Below, piece after piece: positions 3,201 to 60,739 of a stretch of 64,000 bases of DNA (position 1 is the first letter of the stretch; each line of letters starts with the position of its first letter). Below the pieces are notes generated by a model. The model was not told where the DNA came from and did no database searches. It saw only the letters and a program-made list of their open reading frames with translations. A program made the position numbers and the translations under genes. Source of the DNA: Synergistaceae bacterium (lineage in GTDB: Bacteria; Synergistota; Synergistia; Synergistales; Synergistaceae); NCBI GenBank assembly GCA_030523725.1, contig JAUNHV010000001.1, forward strand, positions 1 through 64,000, read 5' to 3'.

Positions 3201-4914
3201 AATTAACATATTAAATGGCGCAAATGTGAAAAACAATGACGTAATGAAAGCTGGAACGCTAAAAATATTTGGTAAAGCATCAGATACAGATCCACTGTCA
3301 GCTGCTGTCCTGACATCAAATGCAAGTAACCTTAAAGCAGACACAATCATAAACGAAGGCACGTTAGAGTTCACAGGAACAGGAGGCACACTTGAATCCA
3401 AGGTGACGACACAGACCGCTGGCGCAAGAGGAACAATAGATTTGCAGGAAGCAACGAAAATTGCCAATACAATCAATAATCAAAACATTATTGTGAAGAA
3501 GGGCTATTCAGAGGTTACAGATGATAGTAATCTAATCAGTGGCACCAACAATGTAACCTTCAATGGTGATGCATATTCTGGTTTTGATTTTAGAAACGGT
3601 AAAACGTCAGATATCAAGTTCAATACCATCAATCTTGAAAAAGACGGCTATGTGAAGCTTGATGTTGACCTTGCAAATAAAAAAATGGATACTATAAATG
3701 CAGAGACAGTTACTGGAAGTGGAAAACTTCATATTACAGCTTTTAAGCTTTTGTCAGATGCCACAGTTGAGAAAGGTATACCTACCGAAGTTATATTTAC
3801 GGAGACAGATGGGTTGGATTTTGTAAGTGATGTTGCAGACGTTGAGTCAGATACGTTTAGATATCATATTATCTGCACTAAGCTTGCCGTTATCTTTGAA
3901 AAACAAAATAAATCTCAACTTGTTAACGTTTTAAAAGTAAAAAATGGTATAACTCTTGGTGATGTAGCAGCAGATGGGCTAACTTCTAATGGTGTTAAAC
4001 AATGTGTCTTTACCTTTTACAAGACTCCTGAAGTTAGTGAGACTGTAAAGGGATTGGCTTCCAGTGGTGTGGCAGCCGTGTCAGCATTAAGAGGCAATGA
4101 CCTCCAAAAACGTCTTGGTGACCTTCGTGGTGGAGCAGAAAGCAATACCGGTTGGGCACGTTTTGAGAGAAATAACGATGACATCAATGCTCAAAAGTCA
4201 GCAAACGTTTCTGGTAACCTATACCAGATTGGTTATGACTTTGCCTTGAAGAATGATGCAGCATCACGTGGTTACTTTGGTGTTTCTCTTGAGCGTTTTG
4301 ATGGAAGCCAGTCATTAAAAATAGGTGGAGGTGACCTTAAATCAACATCCCTTGGTGTTTACTACACAAAGATATACAATAGCGGTCACTATTTTGACTT
4401 AATCTTCCGTTATGGCAGATCCGAAAGTGATACCACGACCAATAGCGATGGTCTTGTTACAAAGTTGGATTACGCCTTGAATGGAGTTTCCTTCTCAGGA
4501 GAATATGGATACAGATGGAATCTTGGCAAGGGCGGAGTTTACCTTGAGCCACAGGTAGAGCTTTACTATGGCTATATTGCCGGTGCGAAGAAGACAAGTA
4601 GCAGAGGATTGCTGTTCAATATGGATAACACCAATCGTTTTATCACGAGATGGGGCGTTGCACTTGGTCAGAGGGTGAGGAACTTCAACTACTATTTAAG
4701 AGCGAGCTACCTTCACGACTTTGCAGGCACAGTGAAAATTGCGTATGGTGACGCACCATACGAACAGGATGGAGCCAAGAACTGGTGGGAAGTTTCCCTA
4801 GGCGGTGGCTGGAACATATCAGACACAAGCTACTTCTATGCAGAATTCACCAAACACTTCAAGGATGTAAGTAATAGTTTGAACTTCAATTTAGGTTTCA
4901 GATTCACACTGTAA
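211..4914 (+). CDS. Type V autotransporter with Pmp-like FxxN/GGAI repeats
   Basis: A 1,567-residue surface protein. The start at 211 is set by AAGGAGG at 195-201. Residues 1-35 form a signal peptide (basic start, hydrophobic core, TPARA cut site). Residues about 155-380 carry seven FxxN motifs (mostly DFIGN, often followed by YASS) alternating with eight GGAI-like motifs (GGAIYN, AGAIEN). These are the two hallmark motifs of chlamydial polymorphic membrane proteins. A long Asn/Gly/Thr-rich passenger follows, of the kind that usually folds as a beta-helix. Residues about 1290-1567 form a 12-strand-type autotransporter barrel (GWARFE near its start, alternating aromatic strands, final GFRFTL). 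The family secretes its passenger across the outer membrane, usually for adhesion. The ligand is unknown. The gene stands alone, and a family A element follows 3 bp after the stop. Confidence 0.93.
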   Translation: MYGMKQRKRQRFLALVMVVMFAVINVTLVVTPARAAEGEHIYTLVDMGAYTPTPGQSFPYGHVVKYDKATKKYVLYKVKNATGKAWGREGRMDPKKGMPKYYKWGETTLVGADADTADIVVGYIDASVPTTRQVDYSDQTAFVGIKTSDSNGVKGGALFVNSAANPVVEADFIGNYASSTLKASYGGAVYIDTGDEILDSITGDFIDNHVSSEKSSCAGAIYISEGKIGSITGDFIGNSSAVYAGAIENYGYIGTLVGDFIGNYASSSGTMTGEAGAIENMSGGTINTLKGDFVGNYASSANNTANGGAIYNSSVSSINALTGNFIGNYVSAKSAAHGGAIWNWGTLKLLAEEKDILFSGNYVSSQNSTNVLGGAIYNLGSEGEGVYLRAAAGKSITFEGRDGDPIVDSVHNQGTLSINEQDGDTEYKGTVNFATVTDSGTGTMNIHNGTVNVAGTLTQKNLDIKSGATMAAKADDVNVSTSFTNAGTLVTYGDLNHLTQLTNSGTVQIASGKTLNVTADMDLGKGSDGVLDLNNSILNMQQAAGATPAYSTLSVKALSNKGELKIDVDLAGNNNDCISYSNYISIPITLSSIHLHSGLTEETTTSLYVLRDGAGAELEVEGKNKEGSIAIQRDGFLHTFTAELNGQVQVKVAKNDIKSIEAFFDQESEVAGAIDEYDLVKAETINNSSVDVGSWGARSHYTIGLNGQNLTGEFAISIGSNATLSVYNTSTTGTISGFETAFVLYTGSTLELENVKFGVNDYAVDMSGGKLILSGTNDFTATEETSEGQEGRAKIEGDGDVTNKGTLKIATANLLPEDGLKNDGTMYLTGGKNNAAGGYWGEIRSSITNTDSATAGEAKTTEGRLVIGDATAGNENKSYTWLKSGVTITQKEIDITNGALRNTEGGQINAKVIKIGGKIGGVDNTESEMLSDAGKIAAEYIYNDGYLSLIGGTSESRDVVNYGITNLAKNTASGHTSLGSGIGEVYLEVNRPITQQQINILNGANVKNNDVMKAGTLKIFGKASDTDPLSAAVLTSNASNLKADTIINEGTLEFTGTGGTLESKVTTQTAGARGTIDLQEATKIANTINNQNIIVKKGYSEVTDDSNLISGTNNVTFNGDAYSGFDFRNGKTSDIKFNTINLEKDGYVKLDVDLANKKMDTINAETVTGSGKLHITAFKLLSDATVEKGIPTEVIFTETDGLDFVSDVADVESDTFRYHIICTKLAVIFEKQNKSQLVNVLKVKNGITLGDVAADGLTSNGVKQCVFTFYKTPEVSETVKGLASSGVAAVSALRGNDLQKRLGDLRGGAESNTGWARFERNNDDINAQKSANVSGNLYQIGYDFALKNDAASRGYFGVSLERFDGSQSLKIGGGDLKSTSLGVYYTKIYNSGHYFDLIFRYGRSESDTTTNSDGLVTKLDYALNGVSFSGEYGYRWNLGKGGVYLEPQVELYYGYIAGAKKTSSRGLLFNMDNTNRFITRWGVALGQRVRNFNYYLRASYLHDFAGTVKIAYGDAPYEQDGAKNWWEVSLGGGWNISDTSYFYAEFTKHFKDVSNSLNFNLGFRFTL

Positions 4915-4917
4915 TGG

Positions 4918-5130
4918 TTTTTTAGCCATAAAGAACATAAAGGGGATGGCGAGCTGAGCTCGCCATCCCTAACATAAAGGCTGGCTTCGCCAGCAAAAAG
5001 AAGATCTCGTTGAGTTTCGAGATTGGTTGTGTTGAGCAATAGAGCAAAATGCTTGAGGTGGCAACTGGAGCAAAAAAGCTCTAGCGAAGCTAGAGCCTCT
5101 GTGCCCTTTATGTACTTTATGGCTAAAAAA
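4918..5130. repeat. Complete 213-bp family A element with terminal inverted repeats
   Basis: The left end (4918-4944) and right end (5104-5130) are inverted repeats matching at 26 of 27 positions (TTTTTTAGCCATAAAG then a second CATAAAGGG block). Nested inside are a 13-bp palindrome with a one-base centre (4943-4969), GCTGGC/GCCAGC (4980-4994), ATCTCG/CGAGAT (5004-5023) and GCTCTAGC/GCTAGAGC (5078-5096). No coding potential is visible. This is the most complete copy and defines the family. It resembles a MITE or a BIME-like mosaic, and no target duplication was recognised. Confidence 0.75.
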
Positions 5131-5145
5131 TAAAAACAAATAAAT

Positions 5146-6054
5146 ATGAAATTTCGAGAATTTTATTTTGCAAATTATAGGTTGCTTCTTGATGAAGCAA
5201 TTTGTAACGAACCTCATACTGGGCATTTGGCGGACTTTGAAAAGCCTATGTCCTACACGGATACCTTTACAATTCAGCTTGGCGATGAAGCAGAGTTCAA
5301 GGCACGGTATGAAGAGGCCATAACGTCACCTAAGGTATTTGAGGATACGCAGCGCTATGCTGTTCATAAGCTAAAAGACGGTTGGGCTGTTGTTGCCCCA
5401 GCAAGGGAACAAATTTCCTGCATGTTGCTAGAAAGCTCTAGGGATTGTGCTCAAATGTCGATATATATGCCTAAAGAGAGAAATTTTATTTCGTCGGATT
5501 CAAAAATTGACAAAGCAAAAAAAATCCTTGTGACAGCGTATGTGCCACATTTTATTATAAGCTCTATGGCCTTGAGGGGTACTCTTGCATTGCACGCATC
5601 TTTGGTGGAGCGTGACGGCTTTGGTGTGCTCTTCCTAGGTCCATCTGGTATGGGCAAATCAACTCAAGCAAAGCTGTGGGAAAGGTATTTGGGCGCTGAC
5701 TTCATTATAGGTGACAGAGCTGTGTGTCGTCAATTTGGTAGTGTCTGGTATGGTTATGGCATGCCTTGGGACGGAACAGACGACATACAGAGACAAAAAT
5801 TCGTTCCTGTAAGAGCACTGGTAGCATTAGAGCAGGCGAAAGAAAACAGGCTTTGCAGACTGAGTGCAGTGGAAGCGATGCAGGTTCTCCTTCGTCAGGC
5901 TAGGTTACCTGTGTGGAATGAAGAGGCTATGCAAAAAAACACCGAGCAAATGTGGTCTATGGCACAGGATCTTCCATTTTATCATCTGCAAAATATGGCA
6001 GATGAAGAATGTGTGAATTTGGTATATAATACACTTTACGAAGTTAAAAAATAG
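5146..6054 (+). CDS. HPr-kinase-like P-loop kinase of a RiPP locus
   Basis: A 302-residue protein with a Walker A loop GPSGMGKS at residues 165-172, following ALHASLVER. This layout is typical of HPr-kinase/PEPCK-fold proteins found in peptide-modification clusters (ScmC, PadeK types). A later YGMPWDGTDD segment matches the region where these proteins hold catalytic acidic residues. PadeK in the paeninodin lasso-peptide system phosphorylates the C-terminal Ser of its precursor. Here the small peptide encoded next door ends in three serines, so a similar tailoring role is inferred. The start has no clear Shine-Dalgarno and lies 15 bp after a family A element. The N-terminal 130 residues are poorly recognisable. 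Confidence 0.75.
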   Translation: MKFREFYFANYRLLLDEAICNEPHTGHLADFEKPMSYTDTFTIQLGDEAEFKARYEEAITSPKVFEDTQRYAVHKLKDGWAVVAPAREQISCMLLESSRDCAQMSIYMPKERNFISSDSKIDKAKKILVTAYVPHFIISSMALRGTLALHASLVERDGFGVLFLGPSGMGKSTQAKLWERYLGADFIIGDRAVCRQFGSVWYGYGMPWDGTDDIQRQKFVPVRALVALEQAKENRLCRLSAVEAMQVLLRQARLPVWNEEAMQKNTEQMWSMAQDLPFYHLQNMADEECVNLVYNTLYEVKK

Positions 6055-6055
6055 C

Positions 6056-6131
6056 TATGCTATAGATGGCCGCTAATGCGGCTAACATAGAGGCTTTTTA
6101 GCCATAAGCGCGTGCTTCGCACGCTAACATA
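6056..6131. repeat. Family A element, two short units
   Basis: Contains GCCGC/GCGGC around 6069-6082, then TTTTTAGCCATAAG leading into GCGTGC TTC GCACGC and CTAACATAAAA. The same border words occur in the copy at 4918. It sits between the kinase and the small peptide gene. Confidence 0.6.
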
Positions 6132-6164
6132 AAAAACAAGTTAAATTTTTAGGAGGTAAAGGTT

Positions 6165-6293
6165 ATGGAAGAAAAAATGCGTTATGAAAAACCGACTGTA
6201 ACCAAGGTAGTAGTCGATTTTAATGAAGCAATTGTCGCAAGCGTTTGCATAATGGTTATGCCACCTGCCTGTCTGACAACAAGCAGTTCCTAG
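6165..6293 (+). CDS. 42-residue RiPP precursor-like peptide
   Basis: This short gene has a perfect ribosome site (AGGAGG at 6151-6156, 8 bases before ATG) and stops 12 bases before the radical SAM gene. The peptide begins MEEKMRYEKPTVTKVVV and ends CIMVMPPACLTTSSS. The YEKPTV segment resembles the YxxPxL-type leader motif bound by PqqD-like recognition domains, such as those of lasso peptides. The putative core has two cysteines (28 and 36), possible sites for a radical SAM thioether, and a C-terminal Ser run, a possible kinase target. No membrane segment or known toxin domain is seen. Precursor identity is inferred from position, ribosome site and leader motif. The core and the final product are unknown. 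Confidence 0.75.
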   Translation: MEEKMRYEKPTVTKVVVDFNEAIVASVCIMVMPPACLTTSSS

Positions 6294-6305
6294 TGACGAG
6301 CAGGG

Positions 6306-7397
6306 ATGCAGACAATATCACAAGAGGAGTTTCTCTATGCACTTTTAGAGAGTAGCTCTAAAAGTGAAATTCCAGCAACAGGGCTGTTTGAGCTCACACC
6401 GCTGTGCAACCTTGATTGCAAAATGTGTTATGTGCATCTAAATGACCCATCAGTTAAGGAACAGTTGCTGGATGGGAAACAGTGGATTTCAATTATAAAG
6501 GAAGCGATTTCTGGTGGAATGGTTTCTGCAACCTTGACAGGTGGAGAAGCCTTGACACATCCAGATTTTTGGGCGATTTATGATTGTCTTGTGCAGGCAG
6601 GAGTGCTAGTTCATGTAAAATCCAATGGCGTTCTGCTGAACGAAGAAAACGTGGAGAGGTTAAAACAATATCCACCAGAGCGTATAGACGTTTCCCTGTA
6701 TGGATGTGACAGGGAGTCTTACATAGCTGTAACTGGTAGGGATGTCTTTGACATTGTTGATGCCAATATAAAAAGTGTAATTGCAGCAGGCCTTCCTCTT
6801 TACATTGCAATCACGCCCAGCAAACCACTTATGCCTTGGCTTGAGCGGACATTAGAATATTTAAAAGACCTCGATGTTTCTGGGGGAGTGAATTTATTGT
6901 TGAACGAGCCAAGGGAAGAAACGGGACGGGTAAAGTCAGATTTCGATTTGACAATAGATGAATATCTGTATGTCCACCAGCGAAAAAAAGAATTATTCCC
7001 TAAAGAAGCGAAACTTACAGAAGGACAAAAACTTTTCCGTGAAGATATGGCAAAAAGACCACATGTCTCAGAACGAGGGCTATATTGTGGCGCGGCACGT
7101 ACTGCCTTTGCTGTATGCTGGGATGGAACGATGCTACCTTGCCCTGGTTTTCCTAAAGAAATTGCCAGTGCCAATGTGCTGCAAGGGGGCTTTGTTGCTT
7201 CTTGGCAGAAAATAAATAGGGCTGTCAAAAACTATTCTGTGCCAGAGAAGTGCCATTCCTGTAGCTATAACACAAGGTGTCATTATTGCCCAGCTCAGCA
7301 TGGAAAATGTGCCTTGAGACACGAATGTGACGAAAGAGTTTGTGAATTTGGGCAGAAGTATTGCGATTGGCTACAAGAGTCAAAAAAATTACGGTAA
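6306..7397 (+). CDS. Radical SAM/SPASM peptide maturase
   Basis: A 363-residue enzyme. Cys34-x3-Cys38-x2-Cys41 (CNLDCKMC) binds the SAM-cleaving 4Fe-4S cluster, and the following TGGEALTHPDF is the usual GGE motif. The C-terminal SPASM region is rich in cysteines (261, 271, 279, 316, 319, 325, 328, 335, 341, 346, 353), enough for two auxiliary clusters. Enzymes of this family crosslink or otherwise modify ribosomal peptides such as sactipeptides and PQQ-like cofactors. It lies 13 bp after the precursor-like peptide and before a separate PqqD-like gene, so that peptide is the likely substrate. The bond formed cannot be told from sequence. The start is ATG at 6306 with only a weak GCAGGG ahead. 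Confidence 0.9.
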   Translation: MQTISQEEFLYALLESSSKSEIPATGLFELTPLCNLDCKMCYVHLNDPSVKEQLLDGKQWISIIKEAISGGMVSATLTGGEALTHPDFWAIYDCLVQAGVLVHVKSNGVLLNEENVERLKQYPPERIDVSLYGCDRESYIAVTGRDVFDIVDANIKSVIAAGLPLYIAITPSKPLMPWLERTLEYLKDLDVSGGVNLLLNEPREETGRVKSDFDLTIDEYLYVHQRKKELFPKEAKLTEGQKLFREDMAKRPHVSERGLYCGAARTAFAVCWDGTMLPCPGFPKEIASANVLQGGFVASWQKINRAVKNYSVPEKCHSCSYNTRCHYCPAQHGKCALRHECDERVCEFGQKYCDWLQESKKLR

Positions 7398-7401
7398 ATT
7401 T

Positions 7402-7441
7402 AATGGCGAGCAGAAGTCGGATTGTCATTCTGCTCGCCATT
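7402..7441 (+). promoter_or_regulatory. Perfect 14-bp stem hairpin between the maturase and PqqD genes
   Basis: AATGGCGAGCAGAA (7402-7415) pairs perfectly with its complement at 7428-7441 around a 12-base loop. No T-run follows, so it is not a classical terminator. It may stabilise or partly attenuate the message between the two genes. Its GGCGAGC arm resembles the large palindrome at 4943-4969. Confidence 0.6.
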
Positions 7442-7470
7442 TATTGATAGGAAAGAGGTAAAAAAATACA

Positions 7471-7734
7471 ATGAAGAGAAAAGAAGGATTTGTTTTGCGT
7501 AAAATGCCAGGGATGAATCTCGTGATGCCAATCGGTGAAAACATCAAGGCCTATAAGGGCTCATTGATACTGAATGACACTGGGGTTTTCATTTATGAGA
7601 AATTATGCGAAGGCAAATCATCGGAAGAAATTGCAATCTCCTTAACAGAAAAATATGACGTAACACAGGAGGAAGCCATGAAAGACGTGGAAGCCACCTG
7701 TGCAGATTTGCTAGAAGCAGGTGTTGTTGAGTAA
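7471..7734 (+). CDS. PqqD-like RiPP recognition protein
   Basis: An 87-residue stand-alone PqqD/RRE protein. Visible family features are GFVLRKMPGMNLVMP in the N-terminal beta region, LNDTGVFIYEKLCEGKSSEEI in the middle, and YDVTQEEAMKDVEATCADLLEAGVV as the final helix pair. PqqD-like proteins bind the leader of a precursor peptide and present it to the radical SAM enzyme. The gene follows the maturase after a strong hairpin and is preceded by GGAAAGAGG. The partner inferred is the 42-residue peptide at 6165. Confidence 0.88.
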   Translation: MKRKEGFVLRKMPGMNLVMPIGENIKAYKGSLILNDTGVFIYEKLCEGKSSEEIAISLTEKYDVTQEEAMKDVEATCADLLEAGVVE

Positions 7735-7753
7735 CACAATTCTTGGTTTTTTA

Positions 7754-7858
7754 TTTTTTGCCATAAAGCGCCACTTCGCGGCTGACATAAGAGTTTTTTA
7801 GCCATAAAGCGCCAACGCCTTCGGCATTGGCTAACATAAAGGCTCTAGCGCTTAGGGC
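7754..7858. repeat. Family A element, two tandem units
   Basis: Two copies of the border word TTTTT(A)GCCATAAAGCG (about 7754-7770 and 7795-7812) are each followed by a small palindrome. The second reads GCCAACGCC TTC GGCATTGGC (7811-7831) and then CTAACATAAAGG. It lies between the PqqD-like gene and the S26 peptidase gene. Confidence 0.65.
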
Positions 7859-7888
7859 AAGAATTTGTATAAAATGAGAAAAAAGTAG

Positions 7889-8377
7889 ATGAAAGAGCGT
7901 TTTTTAAGTATAGAGGAATGGGCAGAGCTCGTTCAACTAGGTGCTGATGATGCTGGCACAGTTCCGATGTGGGTGAGGGTTATCAGTGGCAGTATGTTAC
8001 CCTTCATAAGGGCAAATAAGGACGATATTTTGCTTGTGCCTGTAAAACCTGATGAATTAAAGATTGGCGACATTGTTCTTTTTCCCATAAAGCATATGCG
8101 TGGTGATTATTGCCTACATCGTGTGTATAAAATGAAGGACAATTTGGTGCAGACCTTTGGTGATAACTGTAGGACTCCAGATGTCTGGATGCCAAAGGAA
8201 AAAATTATCGGTAAAGCTATCCTCATTAAACATGGTAGGATAACTATTGACTGCGAAAAGATACGATGGAAAATAGTGTTTAAGGTCTGGACATCTCTTT
8301 GGAGGGTTAGAGGGCTCTTGCGCCTGCCATTGCGAGTTGCTGCAAAAATTAAGAGAGGCTTGTTTGGCAAAAATTAA
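7889..8377 (+). CDS. S26-family (signal peptidase-like) peptidase of the RiPP locus
   Basis: A 162-residue protein with the S26 catalytic motif SGSMLP at residues 33-38 (nucleophile Ser35), then GDIVLF and CLHRV, where His77 is the likely general base as in SipW/ER-type signal peptidases rather than the Ser-Lys type. Unlike ordinary signal peptidase I it has no N-terminal membrane anchor. The only basic or hydrophobic tract is near the C-terminus (WTSLWRVRGLLRLPLRV), which may bind membrane. Such short S26 proteins recur with HPr-like kinases and PqqD genes and are assumed to remove the leader. That function is inferred here. The start ATG at 7889 has a weak ribosome site. Confidence 0.8.
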   Translation: MKERFLSIEEWAELVQLGADDAGTVPMWVRVISGSMLPFIRANKDDILLVPVKPDELKIGDIVLFPIKHMRGDYCLHRVYKMKDNLVQTFGDNCRTPDVWMPKEKIIGKAILIKHGRITIDCEKIRWKIVFKVWTSLWRVRGLLRLPLRVAAKIKRGLFGKN

Positions 8378-8409
8378 AAAATTTGACTTCAGTATTAGTG
8401 GAGAAAATT

Positions 8410-9615
8410 ATGATAAGCGAAACAAATAAAGCTACTTTGGCACTGCTTGCGAGTGTCCTTCATGGCAAAACGCCAGAAAAAATATCGCTAGAGCTTTGGC
8501 ATGATGTTTTGCACGAGCTTATGGCACAAGCTGTGGTTGCCTTGCCTGCACCATATATTTCTGCTCTTGCTTTGCCAGCAGATGCTCAGCAAGCCTACAA
8601 AAGTCAAGTTTGCCTTAATCTGATGAATTTTCATCTGTTAATGCAAGAACAAGAAAAAGTTATCTCATTGCTTAGCGAGGCAAATATTCCTGTAGTGGTA
8701 TTGAAGGGTTCTTCTGCTGCCGTCAATTATCCTGTTCCAGAGTATCGTGCTATGGGCGACATTGATATTCTTGTCCCACCAGAATATTTTCGCAGTGCTT
8801 ATGAAACGCTTGTTGAGGCTGGCTATAAAACGGAAGAATCACGTGATGTGTTTTATAGACACGTAGGTTTTATCACACCAGAGAATATTCATCTAGAACT
8901 ACACAACTATTTTTCAAGTAGCGATAACAAAGAGCAAAATACTACACTTGACAAAATGCTATTCGCTGGTATAGCTAATCGTCGTGTGCAAGTGCAAGTT
9001 GCAAATTACAATGTCGCCATGTTGCCGATAAAGGAAAATGGTCTTGTCCTTTTAGGGCATATCAATCAGCATCTTTCGGATGGCTTGGGGCTCAGACAGA
9101 TAATTGACTGGATGTGTTATGTGGAGCGTTATCTTGACGATGAGTTTTGGGAAAGAGAATTCGCCGAAGTGGCAGAAAAAATTGGTATGAAGCAACTGGC
9201 AATAATTACCACTGCTATGTGCCAAAAGTATTTAGGGCTAAAAAAAGACATTCACTGGTGTCCGTATGAACCAGCCTGTGATGAACTGATGGAATACATT
9301 TTATCTCAGGGTAATTTTGGTCAAAAAGCTATAGCATCAGAGGCGGAAAGGGCAAAGGCGACAGTAGCCTCACGCCTGAAAAAATTTCGTAATCCGTTGC
9401 GAGGGCTTGCTACAGCACAGAGGTATGGTTGTCTCAACTGGAAGGCATGCCAAAAGCACCGTTGCTTAAGGCCATTTGCTTGGCTATATCAGCTCATTCG
9501 TTGGGCAAGACGTGCAAGAGAAGAGAAGGTTGGTATGAAAATGTTCTTTGGTGCTAACGCTAAGGCAAGAGAAGAAACCCAAAAGTTAAAAAAGTTTTAT
9601 ATTACAAGGATGTAA
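8410..9615 (+). CDS. Family-5 nucleotidyltransferase-like protein of the RiPP locus
   Basis: A 401-residue protein of the uncharacterised NTP_transf_5 type. The signature VVLKGSSAAVNYP...YRAMGDIDILV contains a GSS and a DxD pair as in polymerase-beta-fold nucleotidyltransferases, followed by LELHN and a helical C-terminus. I chose ATG 8410 because GTGGAG lies 6 bases ahead. A TTG at 8383 would add nine residues. Homologues occur in lasso-peptide and other RiPP clusters with HPr-like kinases, where the reaction is mostly unproven. It is the last plus-strand gene of the locus and ends in a shared terminator. Confidence 0.82.
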   Translation: MISETNKATLALLASVLHGKTPEKISLELWHDVLHELMAQAVVALPAPYISALALPADAQQAYKSQVCLNLMNFHLLMQEQEKVISLLSEANIPVVVLKGSSAAVNYPVPEYRAMGDIDILVPPEYFRSAYETLVEAGYKTEESRDVFYRHVGFITPENIHLELHNYFSSSDNKEQNTTLDKMLFAGIANRRVQVQVANYNVAMLPIKENGLVLLGHINQHLSDGLGLRQIIDWMCYVERYLDDEFWEREFAEVAEKIGMKQLAIITTAMCQKYLGLKKDIHWCPYEPACDELMEYILSQGNFGQKAIASEAERAKATVASRLKKFRNPLRGLATAQRYGCLNWKACQKHRCLRPFAWLYQLIRWARRAREEKVGMKMFFGANAKAREETQKLKKFYITRM

Positions 9616-9666
9616 AAAGCAGTTGCTGTATCATATTGTTGAAATATGATGTAGCAACTGCTTTTT
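9614..9666. terminator. Bidirectional intrinsic terminator
   Basis: AAAAGCAGTTGCT pairs with AGCAACTGCTTTT with further pairing inside the loop (ATCATATT/AATATGAT). Its A-rich and T-rich flanks let it end both the plus-strand RiPP genes and the minus-strand ABC exporter gene. Confidence 0.85.
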
Positions 9667-9669
9667 GTT

Positions 9670-11391
9670 TTAACGCTCTTTTATAATTTTGCCATTTTGC
9701 ACACGATATACTACGTCACAATTTTCTATCGTTTGCGGACGATGAGCGATAATAATTATTGTTTTATGACCATGCAGGGCATTGACCGATTCTAGAATAG
9801 CTGATTCTGTTTCCGTATCCAGTGAAGAAGTTGCTTCGTCAAACACCAGTAATTTAGGGTTGTTGTACAGAGCTCGTGCTATGCCTATTCTTTGTCGTTG
9901 TCCACCTGATAAACGTATTCCCCGTTCACCAATTTGTGTATCAAGCCCCATGGGTTGTCTTTTTACGAAATCAGCCAATTGAGCTTCGTCTAAAGCTTTC
10001 CACACTTTAGCATCATCAAAGGAATTGTTACCGAAAACGACATTTTCTCGTATAGTGTCATCAAGCATAAAAATACTTTGCGGAATATAGCCGATTAGAT
10101 CCAACCAGCCAGCATAATTTTCCATCACATCTATGCCATCCGAAAGTATCTTTCCTGCCTGTGGCTGCAAAAGTCCAAGCAGGATGTCTGCCGTAGTGGT
10201 TTTTCCCGCCCCAGATGTTCCAACAATGCCAACAGTGCTTCCTGCCAATATCACCATAGAAGTATCTGAGAGGATAGGTTCGCTTTCTGCTTTGTATCTG
10301 TAGGTGATATTTTTTAGCTCAATCTTATCATGCAGTGTTATTGGAATGGCATTATTTTCAACTATATTTGTCTTGTCATCAAGAGAGCTGACATGCTCAA
10401 TCAATCTGTCAAGAGAATGGCCGTGATAGGAAATTACACCTACTGCATTGATAATGCGAACTGCAGCTGGCATAAGCTTTATCGATGCCATGGTGAAGGC
10501 CGCAAGGGCAGGAACCAATGATTTTGCATCATTTCCAGATGCGATCATTATGAGCATTGCTAGCAATGCAGAACATATACACCCCACCTCGATGATAATT
10601 CTTGGAATGCTGTTCAAAACTGAGTATTTTTTTTCAGAATTAATTAACAGTTGTCCAGATTGTTCAAAGTTACGTTCAAAGAAAATTTCACGCCTGCAGA
10701 TTTTTATTTCTTTAATGCCCTGAATTGATTGTAGCAACCACTTATATGTTTTTGACAAATGCTGTCTGAATATATCGCCATCCTTTTGCAAAATAGGTCT
10801 TATTGCTTTTGTAGTAATCAGCACAAGCAGTGTAACCATAGCCATAGTTAGGAGACTCATTAAAGGGTTAACGTGTACCACAACGATAATAATTGCACAA
10901 GACAGAAGGCTTTCAGATGCTAGGGATAGGAGGGTATTTAAAATGCTGTATGAACTTTGGACATCACCATAGACAATGCGCATTATTTCTCCAGATTGAG
11001 CATTAAGATAATATTCATACGGTTTTTTTAGAAATGCGTGGAGCATTTTTTGTTGCATACGAAAGCGACTGTTAAAGACAAATTTTGCAGAGTAGTAATT
11101 TTGAAAAACGAGAAACAAACTTTTTGCTATAAAAACAAGTATCATTACCGTTATGCACAAAATAATAAAGCCAATGTGGCTGTGAATGCAAAGTAAGCTA
11201 CACAGCTGTGCTATAAAAGAATTGCTTTTCATTATATCGGGTTGCATGATTGTCATGATAAGTGGTACTACCATGGAAACACCAATTATTTCGAAGAATG
11301 CCCCAACTATTGTAATTACAAGAAGCCAAATAACTTTTTTTTGTTCTTCTTCACTGAGCAGTCTTTTGAATTTTTTTATTATGGTCAGCAT
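9670..11391 (-). CDS. ABC exporter, fused permease and ATPase
   Basis: A 573-residue half-transporter. The N-terminal 320 residues hold about six membrane segments. The ATPase domain shows Walker A GTSGAGKTT, signature LSGGQRQR, Walker B LLVFDEATSSLD and the switch His in IIIAHRP. It resembles MsbA/PglK-type and RiPP exporters and lacks an N-terminal C39 peptidase domain, consistent with leader removal by the separate S26 protein. It points toward the RiPP genes and shares their terminator, so it may export the mature peptide. It also follows the lipid A genes on the same strand, so a glycan or lipid substrate is possible. The start ATG at 11391 has GGGAG further upstream. Confidence 0.88.
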   Translation of the reverse strand: MLTIIKKFKRLLSEEEQKKVIWLLVITIVGAFFEIIGVSMVVPLIMTIMQPDIMKSNSFIAQLCSLLCIHSHIGFIILCITVMILVFIAKSLFLVFQNYYSAKFVFNSRFRMQQKMLHAFLKKPYEYYLNAQSGEIMRIVYGDVQSSYSILNTLLSLASESLLSCAIIIVVVHVNPLMSLLTMAMVTLLVLITTKAIRPILQKDGDIFRQHLSKTYKWLLQSIQGIKEIKICRREIFFERNFEQSGQLLINSEKKYSVLNSIPRIIIEVGCICSALLAMLIMIASGNDAKSLVPALAAFTMASIKLMPAAVRIINAVGVISYHGHSLDRLIEHVSSLDDKTNIVENNAIPITLHDKIELKNITYRYKAESEPILSDTSMVILAGSTVGIVGTSGAGKTTTADILLGLLQPQAGKILSDGIDVMENYAGWLDLIGYIPQSIFMLDDTIRENVVFGNNSFDDAKVWKALDEAQLADFVKRQPMGLDTQIGERGIRLSGGQRQRIGIARALYNNPKLLVFDEATSSLDTETESAILESVNALHGHKTIIIIAHRPQTIENCDVVYRVQNGKIIKER

Positions 11392-17930: not shown

Positions 17931-18470
17931 CTAATGTTTTTTTAGAAATTCTATAAATGCTAAGAGAGTTTCAAAAGCTATTACAGCAATTTGCAACCGA
18001 ACGTTTTCTCTTGTCCCCTCAAATATTTTCTTAAAGGTTTTTGTTATTCCACTCTTTGTTGCAATTCCAAAAAAAACAGTGCCAAGCGGATTTTCCTCTG
18101 TGCCTCCGTCCGGTCCTGCGAAGCCGGTTACAGAAATTGCTATGTCACTAGGAATTACGCCAAGCACACCGCTCGCCATTTGGGAAGCACAATCAGCACT
18201 CACTGCTCCAACCTCATCAAGCGTTTTAGGGCAAACACGCAAGACACTAGCCTTTACTTCGTCCGAATAAGAAACAACACTGCCATAAAACACAGCAGAA
18301 GAACCGGCAATATCTGTTACGCTCTTTGCCAAAAGTCCCCCTGTGCAAGACTCGGCAAAGGTAAAGTGTAGCCCTTTTTCTTTTGCCTTTGTTACAACCT
18401 GCACGGAAAGTTCATGCAACATGGCCGTCAAATCATTATCGCTTCTAATTTCTGCCATTTTGCTTAACAA
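17931..18470 (-). CDS. pncC: Nicotinamide-nucleotide amidase (CinA C-terminal type), copy 1
   Basis: A 179-residue stand-alone CinA C-terminal domain. The family deamidates nicotinamide mononucleotide in the pyridine nucleotide cycle. Motifs are [23 protein letters not shown] (nucleophile Ser region), [26 protein letters not shown] and [25 protein letters not shown]. It overlaps deoC by 26 bp. It is one of two near-identical copies (about 9 residue changes in 179 against the gene at 58076), part of a 1,175-bp gapless direct repeat. No N-terminal molybdopterin-like domain is present. Confidence 0.92.
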
Positions 18471-19110
18471 TCTTTACAATGCGAGAAGTACCAAGACGTT
18501 TTGCACCCAGGTTTAAGAAATCTTCTGCATCTTCCAAGCTCCCTATTCCGCCAGCGGCTTTAATTTTTTTACCGTTTGTGACGTGTTTTGCAAAGAGTGC
18601 AATGTCCTCTTTTGTGGCTCCACCAGTGCTGAAACCAGTTGAAGTTTTGATAAAATCTGCATCCGATTTGCTCACAATCTCACACATTTTTATTTTCTCT
18701 TCTTCTGTTAAAAGGCAGGTTTCTATTATTACCTTCAAAATTTTTTCAAGGCAATTTTGCTTTATCTCGTTAATTTCTTCCAAAATTTCGTCATAATTTT
18801 TGTCTTTTAGATCACCAATGTTGATGACCATATCAATTTCATCTGCACCATTCTGAACTGCTTGACGAGCTTCAAAACATTTGACTTCTTTTGTGGCATA
18901 GCCATTTGGAAAACCGATGACAGTGCAAATTGCGACACGCCCTGCCGCATATTCGCTAGCACGCTTCACATAAGTTGGTGGAATGCATACAGAAGCAGTT
19001 TTATATGCTATACCATCGTCAATAATTGACCTAATTTCGCTCCAAGTTGTCCCCTGTGACAAAAGCGTATGATCACAATGATTTAATATGTAGTTAATGT
19101 CCATTTTAAT
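17936..19110. repeat. 1,175-bp direct repeat, copy 1
   Basis: Covers pncC and deoC in full. The matching copy is 58081-59255, same orientation, 40,145 bp away, aligned without gaps. Homology stops 6 bp ahead of the deoC start. A further homologous block with terminator, tRNA and tRNA promoter follows at 19297-19504. Confidence 0.9.
18445..19104 (-). CDS. deoC: Deoxyribose-phosphate aldolase, copy 1
   Basis: A 219-residue class I aldolase that splits 2-deoxyribose 5-phosphate to acetaldehyde and glyceraldehyde 3-phosphate. Conserved parts are NHCDHTLL at the start, [34 protein letters not shown] with the Schiff-base Lys, and KAAGGIG. ATG 19104 has GGAG 11 bases upstream. It is about 98 percent identical in protein to the gene at 58590 (5 changes noted). 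Sequence upstream of the start differs completely between the copies, so expression may differ too. Confidence 0.95.
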
Positions 19111-19348: not shown

Positions 19349-19436
19349 TGGTGCCGGAGGGGAGACTCGAACTCCCACGAGGTGTTAGCCTCGGTGGATT
19401 TTGAGTCCACTGCGTCTGCCATTCCGCCACTCCGGC
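19349..19436 (-). tRNA. tRNA-Leu(CAA)
   Basis: An 88-nt gene with encoded CCA (19349-19351) and A73. The acceptor stem GCCGGAG/CTCCGGC pairs perfectly. The anticodon loop CTCAAAA gives CAA (reads UUG). A long variable arm CGAGG/CCTCG marks a class II tRNA, and TTCGAGTC is the T-loop region. Every visible stem is intact, so it should be functional. Confidence 0.95.
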
Positions 19437-52771: not shown

Positions 52772-54646
52772 TTACAGATTATAGGTTGCTTTGAACATAA
52801 AGCGTCTTTCTGGATTGAGGTATCCATCTTTACTGGTGAAATATTCCTTGTTAAATATATTAGTTACTGAAAATTGTAGTGTTAAATCCTTAATCTGTTT
52901 TGCAAGAGAAAAATCCATGGTGAAGATGCTGCCAGAATCATATATGTAATTACCTTCGCCAAAGGTTCTATCAGCATAAAACAAGCCATTTAGCGAAGCT
53001 GTCCAACCGTTTTTCTTGAAGCCTAAGATGACACTTGCTTTCCACCTTGGTTCACCTGACCTTACCCAATGAGAAGAAGCATATTTTTCTTCACCTTTTG
53101 TGAATGAAATTGCAGGGGTTAAGCTCCAATTTTTGTGCCAATTCCACTGATAACTTGCTTCAAAGCCCCATGCACGATATTTATCTACATTTCTATATTG
53201 TCCCTTCCATGAAGATGGATCTGTTGTTACGTAGTTGATTTTGTCATCTAGATTGATGTAGAAAATACCGGCACTCCACGGATTTTTGCTTTCTGCATTT
53301 TTAATGCCAATTTCGTAATCCCATCCCTTTTCAGCTTTTAAATCTGGGTTGATGGATAAGTATGCACTCTCACCGAACATCTGATATAAGGTTGGCATGG
53401 AAAAATGACGGGCAATTGTTAAGTAATATGTAGTTCCTTGCTCATTTGCAAAATTAAATGAAAAACGTGGCATCAGCTCTTTATAATTTGCCCCATCTGA
53501 TATATTCCAGTATTCATAACGCAATCCGATATCAAATGCACATACACCAATAGGTAGCGATGTTTCAATGTAGGGAGCAACTTCAAACCGTGATTTGTCG
53601 TAGGGATAAGAAAAGCCAGTTCTATCTGTATAGGCTGCTTTGTCTTTCTTGTAATCTATTCCGTAGGAAAATGGAAGGATACCTATGTGTGTTTTCCTTG
53701 TCAAGGTGCCACCGTATGTTGTTGAGGACATGTCTGAGTTTTCCGAATTATCTCGTGCAGCCGTGATGCTTTCGAGCTTATTTATAAAAACTCTTCCTAA
53801 AAATTTTCCATCATCGTATTGCAATGTATAACGACCATAGGTGTTTTTCTGGTCATATTGCTGGAAGCCTAATTGAGAAGATTCCCAGTCTGATTTATTC
53901 TGCCCAGCAAAACCTACAAACTTCCAATTATTGTAACCAATGGAAAAATTATAGTCATTTGATGAATAGTGGTTTGCGTGGTCGTAAGTGCCGTCCTCGC
54001 TTTTTCTAATTCGTGTTTCTCCTTCTCTTGTATAACGGTAACCTAGGGTGACACGCCATGCGTCTTCTACCACACCTGCTCTTGTGGAAGTGGAGAAGTA
54101 GCCGTTGCTTCCAGCAAATAGTGATGTGGAAGCGTGGGGCTTGTCAAAACTTTTCTTTGTTATGATGTTTATTACGCCACCTGCGGCATCACTGCCATAA
54201 ATTGCAGAAGAACTGCCCTTTAACACCTCAATTCGTTCAACTGTATCTAAATCTATCGTGCGTAAATCTAATGGACCGCCTAAATCGCTCCCCGTCCCAT
54301 GATTTGGATCGCTTACTGCTATTCCGTCAATCAAATAAAGCATTTCACTTGTGAGCCCTCTTATGGTTAGTCCTTTTTTTTGAGCCATAGAAGCATCATT
54401 CACAGTGGTGCAGAGACCTGGAATATATTTCAATGCATCATGGATTGTTTTTGCCCCAGAATTTGCAATATCTTCTTTTGTCACGACATAGGTCTGTGCA
54501 GGGACTTCATCAAAGCTTTCTACTATGCGTGACCCTGTCACTTCAACAGTGTCAAGCTTTTTAATTTCTTCGTCCTTGGCAAAAGCATAGGTTGAAGCAA
54601 AAACAACCGTAAAAGATAAAATAAGTGCTGTAATTTTTTTGTGCAT
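52772..54646 (-). CDS. TonB-dependent outer membrane receptor, BtuB-like
   Basis: A 624-residue receptor. The signal peptide ends near FAFAKD-like STYAFA (residue 23). A TonB box-like LDTVEVTGSR follows, then the plug domain (PAQTYVVTKEDIANSGAKTIHDALK, LIDGIAVSDPNHG, RIEVLKGSSSAIYGSDAAGGVINIITKK) and a 22-strand barrel ending FKATYNL. Cobalamin is the likely cargo because a cobalamin riboswitch lies in its leader; the protein size is close to BtuB. No TonB/ExbBD or btuCDF genes are nearby. It is a single-gene unit with its own terminator. Confidence 0.93.
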   Translation of the reverse strand: MHKKITALILSFTVVFASTYAFAKDEEIKKLDTVEVTGSRIVESFDEVPAQTYVVTKEDIANSGAKTIHDALKYIPGLCTTVNDASMAQKKGLTIRGLTSEMLYLIDGIAVSDPNHGTGSDLGGPLDLRTIDLDTVERIEVLKGSSSAIYGSDAAGGVINIITKKSFDKPHASTSLFAGSNGYFSTSTRAGVVEDAWRVTLGYRYTREGETRIRKSEDGTYDHANHYSSNDYNFSIGYNNWKFVGFAGQNKSDWESSQLGFQQYDQKNTYGRYTLQYDDGKFLGRVFINKLESITAARDNSENSDMSSTTYGGTLTRKTHIGILPFSYGIDYKKDKAAYTDRTGFSYPYDKSRFEVAPYIETSLPIGVCAFDIGLRYEYWNISDGANYKELMPRFSFNFANEQGTTYYLTIARHFSMPTLYQMFGESAYLSINPDLKAEKGWDYEIGIKNAESKNPWSAGIFYINLDDKINYVTTDPSSWKGQYRNVDKYRAWGFEASYQWNWHKNWSLTPAISFTKGEEKYASSHWVRSGEPRWKASVILGFKKNGWTASLNGLFYADRTFGEGNYIYDSGSIFTMDFSLAKQIKDLTLQFSVTNIFNKEYFTSKDGYLNPERRFMFKATYNL

Positions 54647-54809: not shown

Positions 54810-54995
54810 AAGCCTCACAGTGTTCGCTCGCCACAGTTAGGAAAATAATTCACTGCGTAGGTTTTCCGACTCTCCTTCACCCTCACCAAACCTTCCCAGT
54901 TTTAACAACCAGTGGTATTTATGGTTCGTCCAGATTACGGCAGCGTGACTGTTTTGGATTTTCACCAAATTCCCTTCCGCAATTACTACCCGAAT
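54810..54995 (-). promoter_or_regulatory. Cobalamin riboswitch
   Basis: Read on the minus strand: GGGAATTTGGTGAAAATCC, CAGTCACGCTGC, a CCACTGG box, ACTGGGAAGG, and GAGTCGGAAAACCT in this order. This is the conserved core of adenosylcobalamin-type riboswitches. With the terminator at 54691 it should shut off the receptor gene when B12 is plentiful. Confidence 0.93.
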
Positions 54996-55048
54996 TTTAA
55001 CATGAAATATTTATTTGTCAAATATATTGATAAGTAAAACTGTTCAGT

Positions 55049-58075: not shown

Positions 58076-58615
58076 TTAGCGTTTTTTTAGAAATTCAATA
58101 AATGCTAAGAGAGTTTCAAAAGCCGTTACAGCAGTTTGCAAGCGAACGTTTTCTCTTGTCCCCTCAAATATTTTCTTAAAGGTTTTTGTTATTCCGCTCT
58201 TTGTTGCAATTCCAAAATAAACAGTGCCAAGCGGATTTTCCTCTGTGCCTCCGTCCGGTCCTGCAAAGCCCGTTACAGAAATTGCTATGTCACTCGGAAT
58301 TACGCCAAGCACACCGCTTGCCATTTGAGAAGCACAATCAGCACTCACTGCTCCAACCTCATCAAGCGTTTTTTGGCAAACACGCAAGACACTAGCCTTT
58401 ACTTCGTCCGAATAAGAAACAACACTGCCATAAAACACAGCAGAAGAACCGGCAATATCTGTTACGCTCTTCGCCAAAAGTCCCCCTGTGCAAGACTCGG
58501 CAAAGGTAAAGTGAAGCCCATTTTCTTTTGCCTTTGTTACAACCTGCACGGAAAGTTCATGCAACATTGCCATCAAATCAATATTGCTTCTAATTTCTGC
58601 CATTTTGCTTAACAA
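58076..58615 (-). CDS. pncC: Nicotinamide-nucleotide amidase, copy 2
   Basis: A 179-residue twin of the gene at 17931, with about 95 percent protein identity. All family motifs remain ([33 protein letters not shown]), so both copies are probably active. Changes are scattered (for example DNDLT to NIDLM near the start, and VFFG to VYFG), which suggests a recent duplication. It overlaps deoC copy 2 by 26 bp as in copy 1. Confidence 0.92.
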
Positions 58616-59255
58616 TCTTTACAATGCGAGAAGTGCCAAGACGTTCTGCACCTAGATTTAAGAAATCTTCTGCATCTTTCAAGCTTCCTATTCCACCGGC
58701 GGCTTTAATTTTTTTACCATTTGTGACATGCTTTGCAAAGAGTGCTATATCCTCTTTGGTAGCTCCACCAGTGCTGAAGCCAGTTGAAGTCTTGATAAAA
58801 TCTGCCTCTGATTTGCTCACAATCTCACACATTTTTATTTTCTCTTCTTCTGTTAAAAGGCAAGTTTCTATTATTACCTTCAAAATTTTTCCAAGACAAT
58901 TTTGCTTTATTTCGTTAATTTCTTCCAAAATCTCGTCATAATTTTTGTCTTTTAGATCGCCGATGTTGATAACCATGTCAATTTCATCTGCACCGTTTTG
59001 AACCGCCTGACGAGCCTCAAAACATTTTACTTCTTTTGTGGCATAGCCATTTGGAAAACCGATGACAGTGCAAATTGCGACACGCCCTGCCGCATATTCG
59101 CTAGCACGCTTCACATAAGTTGGTGGAATGCATACAGAAGCAGTTTTATATGCTATACCATCGTCAATAATTGACCTAATTTCGCTCCAGGTTGCCCCCT
59201 GTGACAAAAGCGTATGATCACAATGATTTAATATGTAGTTAATATCCATTTTAAT
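58081..59255. repeat. 1,175-bp direct repeat, copy 2
   Basis: Gapless partner of 17936-19110 in the same orientation. Homology ends 6 bases ahead of the deoC start, where the antiporter gene begins. It resumes at the terminator, tRNA and tRNA promoter (60601-60807). Confidence 0.9.
58590..59249 (-). CDS. deoC: Deoxyribose-phosphate aldolase, copy 2
   Basis: A 219-residue aldolase differing from copy 1 at about five residues (GTTW to GATW, LEKI to LGKI, SDAD to SEAD, SLED to SLKD, AKRL to AERL), none in the Schiff-base motif FIKTSTGF. Unlike copy 1 it directly follows the antiporter gene (1 bp gap) and should be co-transcribed with it. Confidence 0.95.
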
Positions 59256-60651: not shown

Positions 60652-60739
60652 TGGTGCCTGAGGGGAGACTCGAACTCCCACGAGGTGTTAGTCCCGATGG
60701 ATTTCGAGTCCACTGCGTCTGCCAGTCCGCCACTCCGGC
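60652..60739 (-). tRNA. tRNA-Leu-like gene with CGA anticodon; possible pseudogene
   Basis: An 88-nt homologue of the gene at 19349 with encoded CCA and A73. The anticodon loop reads CTCGAAA, giving CGA (a Ser UCG anticodon) from CAA by one A-to-G change. The body stays Leu-like: D-arm, long variable arm and acceptor end. Damage: G4-A69 mismatch in the acceptor stem, G27-T43 wobble, and a weaker variable arm (CGGGA against CCTCG). Promoter and terminator are kept. It could be a decayed copy, or a charged tRNA that places Leu at UCG. Confidence 0.7.

Follow-up and report, generated by a model that had tools for sequence, protein, structure and literature searches.

The closest described system is that of the Linear Polyphosphorylated Peptides (LPP), the lppAKBSDN cluster of Paenibacillus alginolyticus (PMC13381572, May 2026). 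LPP clusters combine a SpI peptidase, a discrete RRE, an HprK kinase, an NTP transferase, and an MsbA-like exporter; from heterologous data, LppK phosphorylates Ser3 of LppA, 18 residues from the leader Tyr, and LppS cuts together with LppB, after F-E-T and with a preference for the modified precursor (PMC13381572). The same paper gives the RRE-binding motif of lasso and LPP leaders as [Y/W]xxPx[V/L] and states that LPPs are restricted to Bacillota; the word “radical” is absent from its text (PMC13381572). Kinases of the paeninodin type modify the C-terminal Ser of lasso peptides, and PsmN adds a hexose to a phosphorylated lasso peptide (PMC9266682). In both groups, as known RiPPs, HprK-type kinases leave the phosphate on (PMC13381572, PMC9266682).

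The sequence evidence indicates that the locus at 5146-11391 of the window (the whole stretch analysed, 64,000 nucleotides from a Synergistaceae bacterium) is a genuine RiPP cluster, conserved yet rare, whose product is probably a small two-Cys peptide altered by a radical enzyme and a phosphate-adding kinase. Family scans and gene calls give six plus-strand genes at 5146-9615, from an HprK-like kinase through NTP_transf_5, followed by a gene on the opposite strand:

5146..6054, plus strand: HprK-like peptide kinase, 302 aa, proposed LppK counterpart (Walker A GPSGMGKST; His150, Lys171, Asp190)
6151..6157, plus strand: Shine-Dalgarno sequence AGGAGGT, 7 nt 5' of the precursor ATG (direct sequence reading)
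6165..6293, plus strand: precursor MEEKMRYEKPTVTKVVVDFNEAIVAS-VCIMVMPPACLTTSSS, 42 aa (RRE motif YEKPTV; conserved Ser26, Cys28, Cys36)
6306..7397, plus strand: radical SAM/SPASM peptide maturase, 363 aa (CxxxCxxC at C34/C38/C41 and seven more conserved Cys; PF04055, 1.5e-16)
7471..7734, plus strand: discrete PqqD-type RRE, 87 aa (PF05402, 1.2e-11)
7889..8377, plus strand: S26 leader peptidase of archaeal/SipW/SEC11 type (S24/S26 peptidase), 162 aa (TIGR02228, 1.2e-13)
about 8410..9615, plus strand: family-5 nucleotidyltransferase (NTP_transf_5, here NTP5), 401 aa, proposed LppN/PsmN counterpart (PF14907, 4.4e-37)
9614..9666: bidirectional terminator-like hairpin between the NTP5 and ABC genes (24-nt arms, 92% complementary; terminator scan)
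9670..11391, minus strand: ABC transporter, 573 aa, PglK/MsbA-like, possible exporter and tentative member (PglK model 1.3e-91, below the equivalog cut-off)

A preliminary description had named these gene types (kinase, radical SAM, PqqD, S26, NTP5, ABC) around a 42-residue peptide with a strong ribosome site, and the scans found all of them, and the peptide, where it had put them. Its “compact set of plus-strand genes” holds from the kinase to NTP5; the ABC gene falls outside, since it lies on the minus strand and converges on NTP5. The precursors match no NCBIfam or Pfam family model above cut-off. The description had missed the LPP family.

Searched with the radical SAM protein, GTDB genomes yielded 79 loci, including a tight group (L011-L039) of 27 distinct loci once near duplicates were removed, from gut and rumen Lachnospiraceae, Oscillospiraceae, and Prevotella-type genomes. 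Homologues of the kinase, PqqD, and S26 genes are present in the tight group wherever the contig is long enough; in L033 no kinase turned up near the radical SAM gene, and its contig ends just past the precursor. The preliminary description was right to single out the combination of radical SAM and proposed kinase tailoring as unusual. A short, motif-bearing ORF adjoins the radical SAM gene in 27/27 of these loci, a rate that is partly circular because these loci also supplied the motif, although the position of the ORF is not; ORFs with the leader motif were found neither elsewhere in 354 kb nor in block-shuffled sequence. The claim of a RiPP locus, which turned on whether homologous gene sets have a conserved peptide as neighbour, survives this comparison. 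Beyond the tight group, a more remote one (L040-L089) resembles the cassette in its radical SAM, S26, and kinase genes and in its precursors.

Alignment of 28 precursors gives the leader consensus YExPTVxKVEFDxxxRIAAS, whose YxxPxV agrees with the lasso/LPP motif. After the leader there usually come Gly and a first Cys, which 6-15 loop residues separate from a second Cys close to the C-terminus. The conserved residue at the end of the leader is Ser in 27/28 (Thr once, in L031, at +19) and stands 19 residues past the Tyr in 27/28 (the Ser of L030 is at +21); in more distant relatives a conserved Ser lies 18-20 residues after the Tyr. The core is hypervariable and acidic, with four Lys or Arg in total, usually two Cys as its constants, and no conserved acceptor residues in the loop. 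Over 120 pairs of Prevotella-type loci, the leader is 90% identical, the radical SAM enzyme 81%, and the core 32%, vs 27% for shuffled cores. In L023, L024, and L025, Trp replaces the first core Cys, and L023 has one Cys only. The precursor gene is single-copy in the window genome.

With LPP the locus shares an HprK-like kinase, a discrete RRE, a SipW/SEC11-type leader peptidase, an NTP transferase, the YxxPxV leader, a conserved Ser 18-20 residues past the Tyr, and the lack of a macrolactam cyclase; the convergent PglK/MsbA-like ABC gene, of low identity to cassette exporters, may correspond to the MsbA-like exporter. There are differences: the radical SAM/SPASM enzyme present here goes unmentioned in the LPP paper, the core here is short and usually has two Cys, and the LPP leader continues as LxHQxIxFET but here as KVEFDxxxRIAAS, so that of the full LPP consensus YxxPxVLxHQxIxFETxxS only YxxPxV and the downstream Ser agree. 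LPPs were described as confined to Bacillota, whereas the present cassette occurs in gut Clostridia, Prevotella-type bacteria, and the window genome. It appears to be a variant of the LPP family equipped with a radical enzyme.

The RRE (45-72% identical to other cassette RREs) scores nearer to that of the lasso protein TfuB1 (6.5e-10, 42 bits) than to LppB (9x8z; 0.03, 18 bits); its pocket residues N35, Y62, and D72 are comparable to those of LppB. The peptidase falls just under the TIGR02228 cut-off (51.2 vs 51.85 bits) and matches the SEC11A profile at 1.3e-5; S35, H77, D92, and D121 are invariant in the cassette alignment, making Ser35/His77/Asp92 or Asp121 a candidate catalytic triad.

Our preferred reading, to which we give a probability of roughly 0.6, is an LPP-like pathway with an added radical SAM crosslinker of the Cys core and a kinase acting on Ser26. 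Gene content, conservation, the leader, the conserved residues, and the folds are direct observations; the chemical steps and their order, the phosphosite, the thioether, the cleavage site, the role of NTP5, and the exporter are inferred, the chemistry by analogy with LPP, paeninodin/pseudomycoidin, and SkfB. The RRE (7471-7734) would bind YEKPTV of the 42-aa precursor and make the precursor available for modification. The radical SAM/SPASM enzyme would oxidatively modify the Cys core; the kinase would then phosphorylate Ser26, which lies two residues ahead of the first core Cys, once or more than once. Release by the SEC11/SipW-type serine peptidase, probably favouring the modified precursor as LppS does, would come next, with a cut near residues 19-26, followed by capping, in which NTP_transf_5 would decorate the phosphate with a sugar or nucleotide, and by export through an ABC transporter, for which the convergent gene is a possible candidate.

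SkfB is a thioether maturase, and the related SPASM enzymes have several chemistries, including the carbon-carbon crosslink of SuiB, the oxidation by anSME, and that of PqqE. These four are the nearest solved enzymes both in the profile search, with SkfB best at 9e-27, and in Foldseek comparison of the AlphaFold model (pLDDT 90), with SkfB again on top. The enzyme is 45-56% identical to its cassette homologues, with C34/C38/C41 and C261, C279, C316, C319, C325, C328, and C346 invariant in their alignment. SPASM clusters together with a Cys-containing precursor, and the closeness to SkfB, are features of sactipeptides and ranthipeptides (SkfB, AlbA, PapB type); the present system differs from these in its separate RRE, kinase, and S26 peptidase, in lacking a conserved acceptor, and in that no maturase model is at cut-off (SkfB, AlbA, PapB, and WgkB all score far below it, and no NCBIfam equivalog is reached). 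By analogy with SkfB, the likeliest product is a Cys-derived thioether (loss of 2 H). The two Cys might instead form a plain disulfide, with the radical enzyme carrying out another chemistry such as epimerisation or a carbon-carbon crosslink. The unconserved loop acceptors, the variable loop length, and the diversity of the SPASM enzymes would suit such an arrangement, but it is rather unlikely: Cys (with Ser) is the sole constant of the core and therefore the only residue on which the radical enzyme could rely, the best structural and sequence match is a thioether maturase, and L023, having a single Cys, could not form an intramolecular disulfide.

The kinase matches the ScmC, HprK_rel, and HPr(Ser) kinase models at 5e-9 to 3e-4, all below cut-off, and its AlphaFold model (pLDDT 85) matches PEPCK/HprK folds at modest TM-score; it is 43-48% identical to other cassette kinases, and H150, K171, and D190 are invariant across them. 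Of the four catalytic residues of lasso kinases, only three could be located, since the sequence reads GDRP (Gly-Asp) where the usual Asp-Asp would be expected. The distant radical SAM-linked kinases mostly have GDRP too, and NDDxP is found in second, extra kinases of Prevotella-type loci. The window genome has no second copy of the kinase. In L024 the radical SAM gene and the HprK-like kinase each have an additional counterpart, at 3863-5164 for the former and with the usual Asp-Asp in the latter.

Another reading of the conserved Ser is that it marks cleavage rather than phosphorylation, since it would suit position -1 where signal peptidases cut (a small residue, then any residue, then Ser). 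It would then be P1 of the peptidase site (A/T/V-x-Ser | G-Cys), and the kinase would act on another molecule or on a variable Ser/Thr elsewhere in the core or tail. Residues -3 and -1 obey the small-residue rule in nearly all of the 28 precursors (AAS, TAS, VAS, TPS, AHS, AYS, TAT), and the window core ends in TTSSS, which recalls the C-terminal Ser targeted by paeninodin-type kinases. The C-terminal residue varies between precursors, however (V, F, A, E, S, L, W, Y, N, M), the LppS cut after F-E-T is no small-x-Ser site, and L034 has no Ser or Thr past its first core Cys, leaving the AST just before that Cys as its only phosphosite candidates. On balance we consider this reading improbable and retain Ser26 as the proposed target of the kinase.

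Paeninodin/pseudomycoidin-type lasso clusters share with the locus an HprK-like kinase, a discrete RRE with a [Y/W]xxP leader, an NTP transferase, and an ABC exporter; here the cyclase, the B2 cysteine protease, and a conserved C-terminal Ser are lacking and a radical SAM enzyme is present. SynChlorMet clusters (ScmC/D/E/F) share an HprK-related protein, a PqqD-like protein, and radical SAM/SPASM, but have two radical SAM enzymes where there is one here, and the S26 peptidase and NTP5 are found here. The link to SynChlorMet drawn in the preliminary description fails, all four Scm models scoring well under their curated cut-offs (35.9/125, 19.8/100, 44.2/400, and 60.3/400 bits for ScmC, D, E, and F). 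Its observation that the locus has neither lasso cyclase nor lanthionine synthase stands. A lasso assignment was rejected for want of an Asn-synthase-like cyclase or B2 protease in the cluster, and a lanthipeptide route for want of a LanC-like gene: genome-wide, neither Transglut_core3 (lasso B2) nor LanC-like (PF05147) was found, and the one Asn_synthase-type match is on another contig. That the locus is a lasso- or SynChlorMet-type cluster minus its cyclase is very improbable: the RRE is close to TfuB1, a kinase and NTP transferase are common to paeninodin-type clusters, and there are weak Scm matches, but the cassette is kept without a cyclase across phyla, and B2, absent from the window genome, is not found above cut-off in the genomes of five relatives either. 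Elimination of phospho-Ser to dehydroalanine and capture by Cys into a lanthionine-like ring, with the radical SAM enzyme as an extra step, would use the invariant Ser near an invariant Cys and the kinase, but can scarcely be credited with neither a lyase domain at the locus nor LanC in the genome, and with known RiPP kinases of HprK type keeping the phosphate on.

NTP5 and an ABC gene are frequent additions in Firmicute loci. Prevotella-type loci have the gene order radical SAM-precursor-RRE-S26-kinase; in the close ones, such as L016, no NTP5 was seen in the flanks examined, and an ABC gene is rare among them, so that those steps are not universal. The window NTP5 is closest to those of the distant radical SAM/HprK loci L050, L064, and L059 (3e-79 to 5e-69) rather than to the close clade, which suggests that the cassette is a mosaic. 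The ABC gene is about 25-36% identical to cassette ABC genes, a distant relationship, and is convergent on the minus strand, sharing the terminator-like hairpin with NTP5; its role as the cassette exporter is tentative. Accessory genes in other loci, for an arylsulfotransferase-like protein (L011:9915-11792), a Ser/Thr kinase (L012:11603-12694), and a glycosyltransferase-looking protein (L031:2968-4119), hint at further peptide tailoring.

An intergenic repeat (TTTTTAGCCATAA + palindrome + TAACATAAAG) occurs at 4912-5130, 6088-6120, 7747-7850, 33390, 19527, and other positions; the window has 10 near matches against an expectation of 0.37, several of them between cassette genes, and a 14-mer has 11 exact copies genome-wide. 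The intergenic hairpins were ruled out as locus-specific elements, the repeat being spread through the intergenic regions of the genome, and an Rfam scan of the locus found no RNA element.

Distances between loci for the radical SAM enzyme, kinase, and RRE correlate (r = 0.87-0.96, Mantel P 0.0005); correlations with S26 are lower (0.38-0.47), owing to a different type of S26 in L037 and a few Prevotella-type loci. The present locus groups with L011, from horse-gut Lachnospiraceae (99/98 support), on long branches. Seeds included, the cassette is found in 1/183 genomes of its own class (the window genome being the sole carrier), 2/392 of the order of L011, and 1/399 of the family of Prevotella ruminicola; within its own family and order, the search for radical SAM orthologues gave weak, distant enzymes only. 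Given this absence from relatives, the cassette was probably acquired horizontally. In plasmid searches, all radical SAM matches were below 60% identity (23-27% among the 15 matches listed), HprK and S26 gave only a few distant matches, and no named plasmid carrying the cassette was found. Anaerolineaceae and actinobacterial labels were rejected as true hosts: the genes so labelled either match Clostridia sequences almost exactly or fall within groups of them, so misbinning is likely.

Directly upstream of the cassette is a 1567-aa autotransporter (PF03797, 211-4914); with lipid A-type genes also present in the genome, it makes a diderm host probable. Further along the window, 17931-19104 and 58076-59249 (both minus strand) are a near-identical pair, each with a 179-aa CinA-like ORF and a 219-aa DeoC-like ORF and with a tRNA gene nearby (19352-19436 and 60655-60739). 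A cobalamin riboswitch (54837-55019, minus strand) lies upstream of a TonB-dependent receptor-like gene (52772-54646).

No RiPP tailored by both an HprK kinase and a radical SAM enzyme has been described in the literature searched, which was mostly outside subscription journals, an earlier listing in a radical SAM atlas being possible. We suggest tentatively, at a little under even odds, that the cassette defines a distinct RiPP class of gut and rumen anaerobes in which one short peptide is crosslinked and (poly)phosphorylated, and possibly then glycosylated or nucleotidylated at the phosphate, with a hypervariable two-Cys core, different in nearly every genome, like that of a strain-specific signal or inhibitor. 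LPP-type logic may extend beyond Bacillota, to which the LPP paper restricts it (PMC13381572). The family has a small five-gene core, intact-looking catalytic-type residues, and about 26 different peptide cores that nature has joined to a nearly constant leader. It would be useful for asking how a single substrate is passed by an RRE to three enzymes, one radical, one a kinase, and one a signal-peptidase-like protease.
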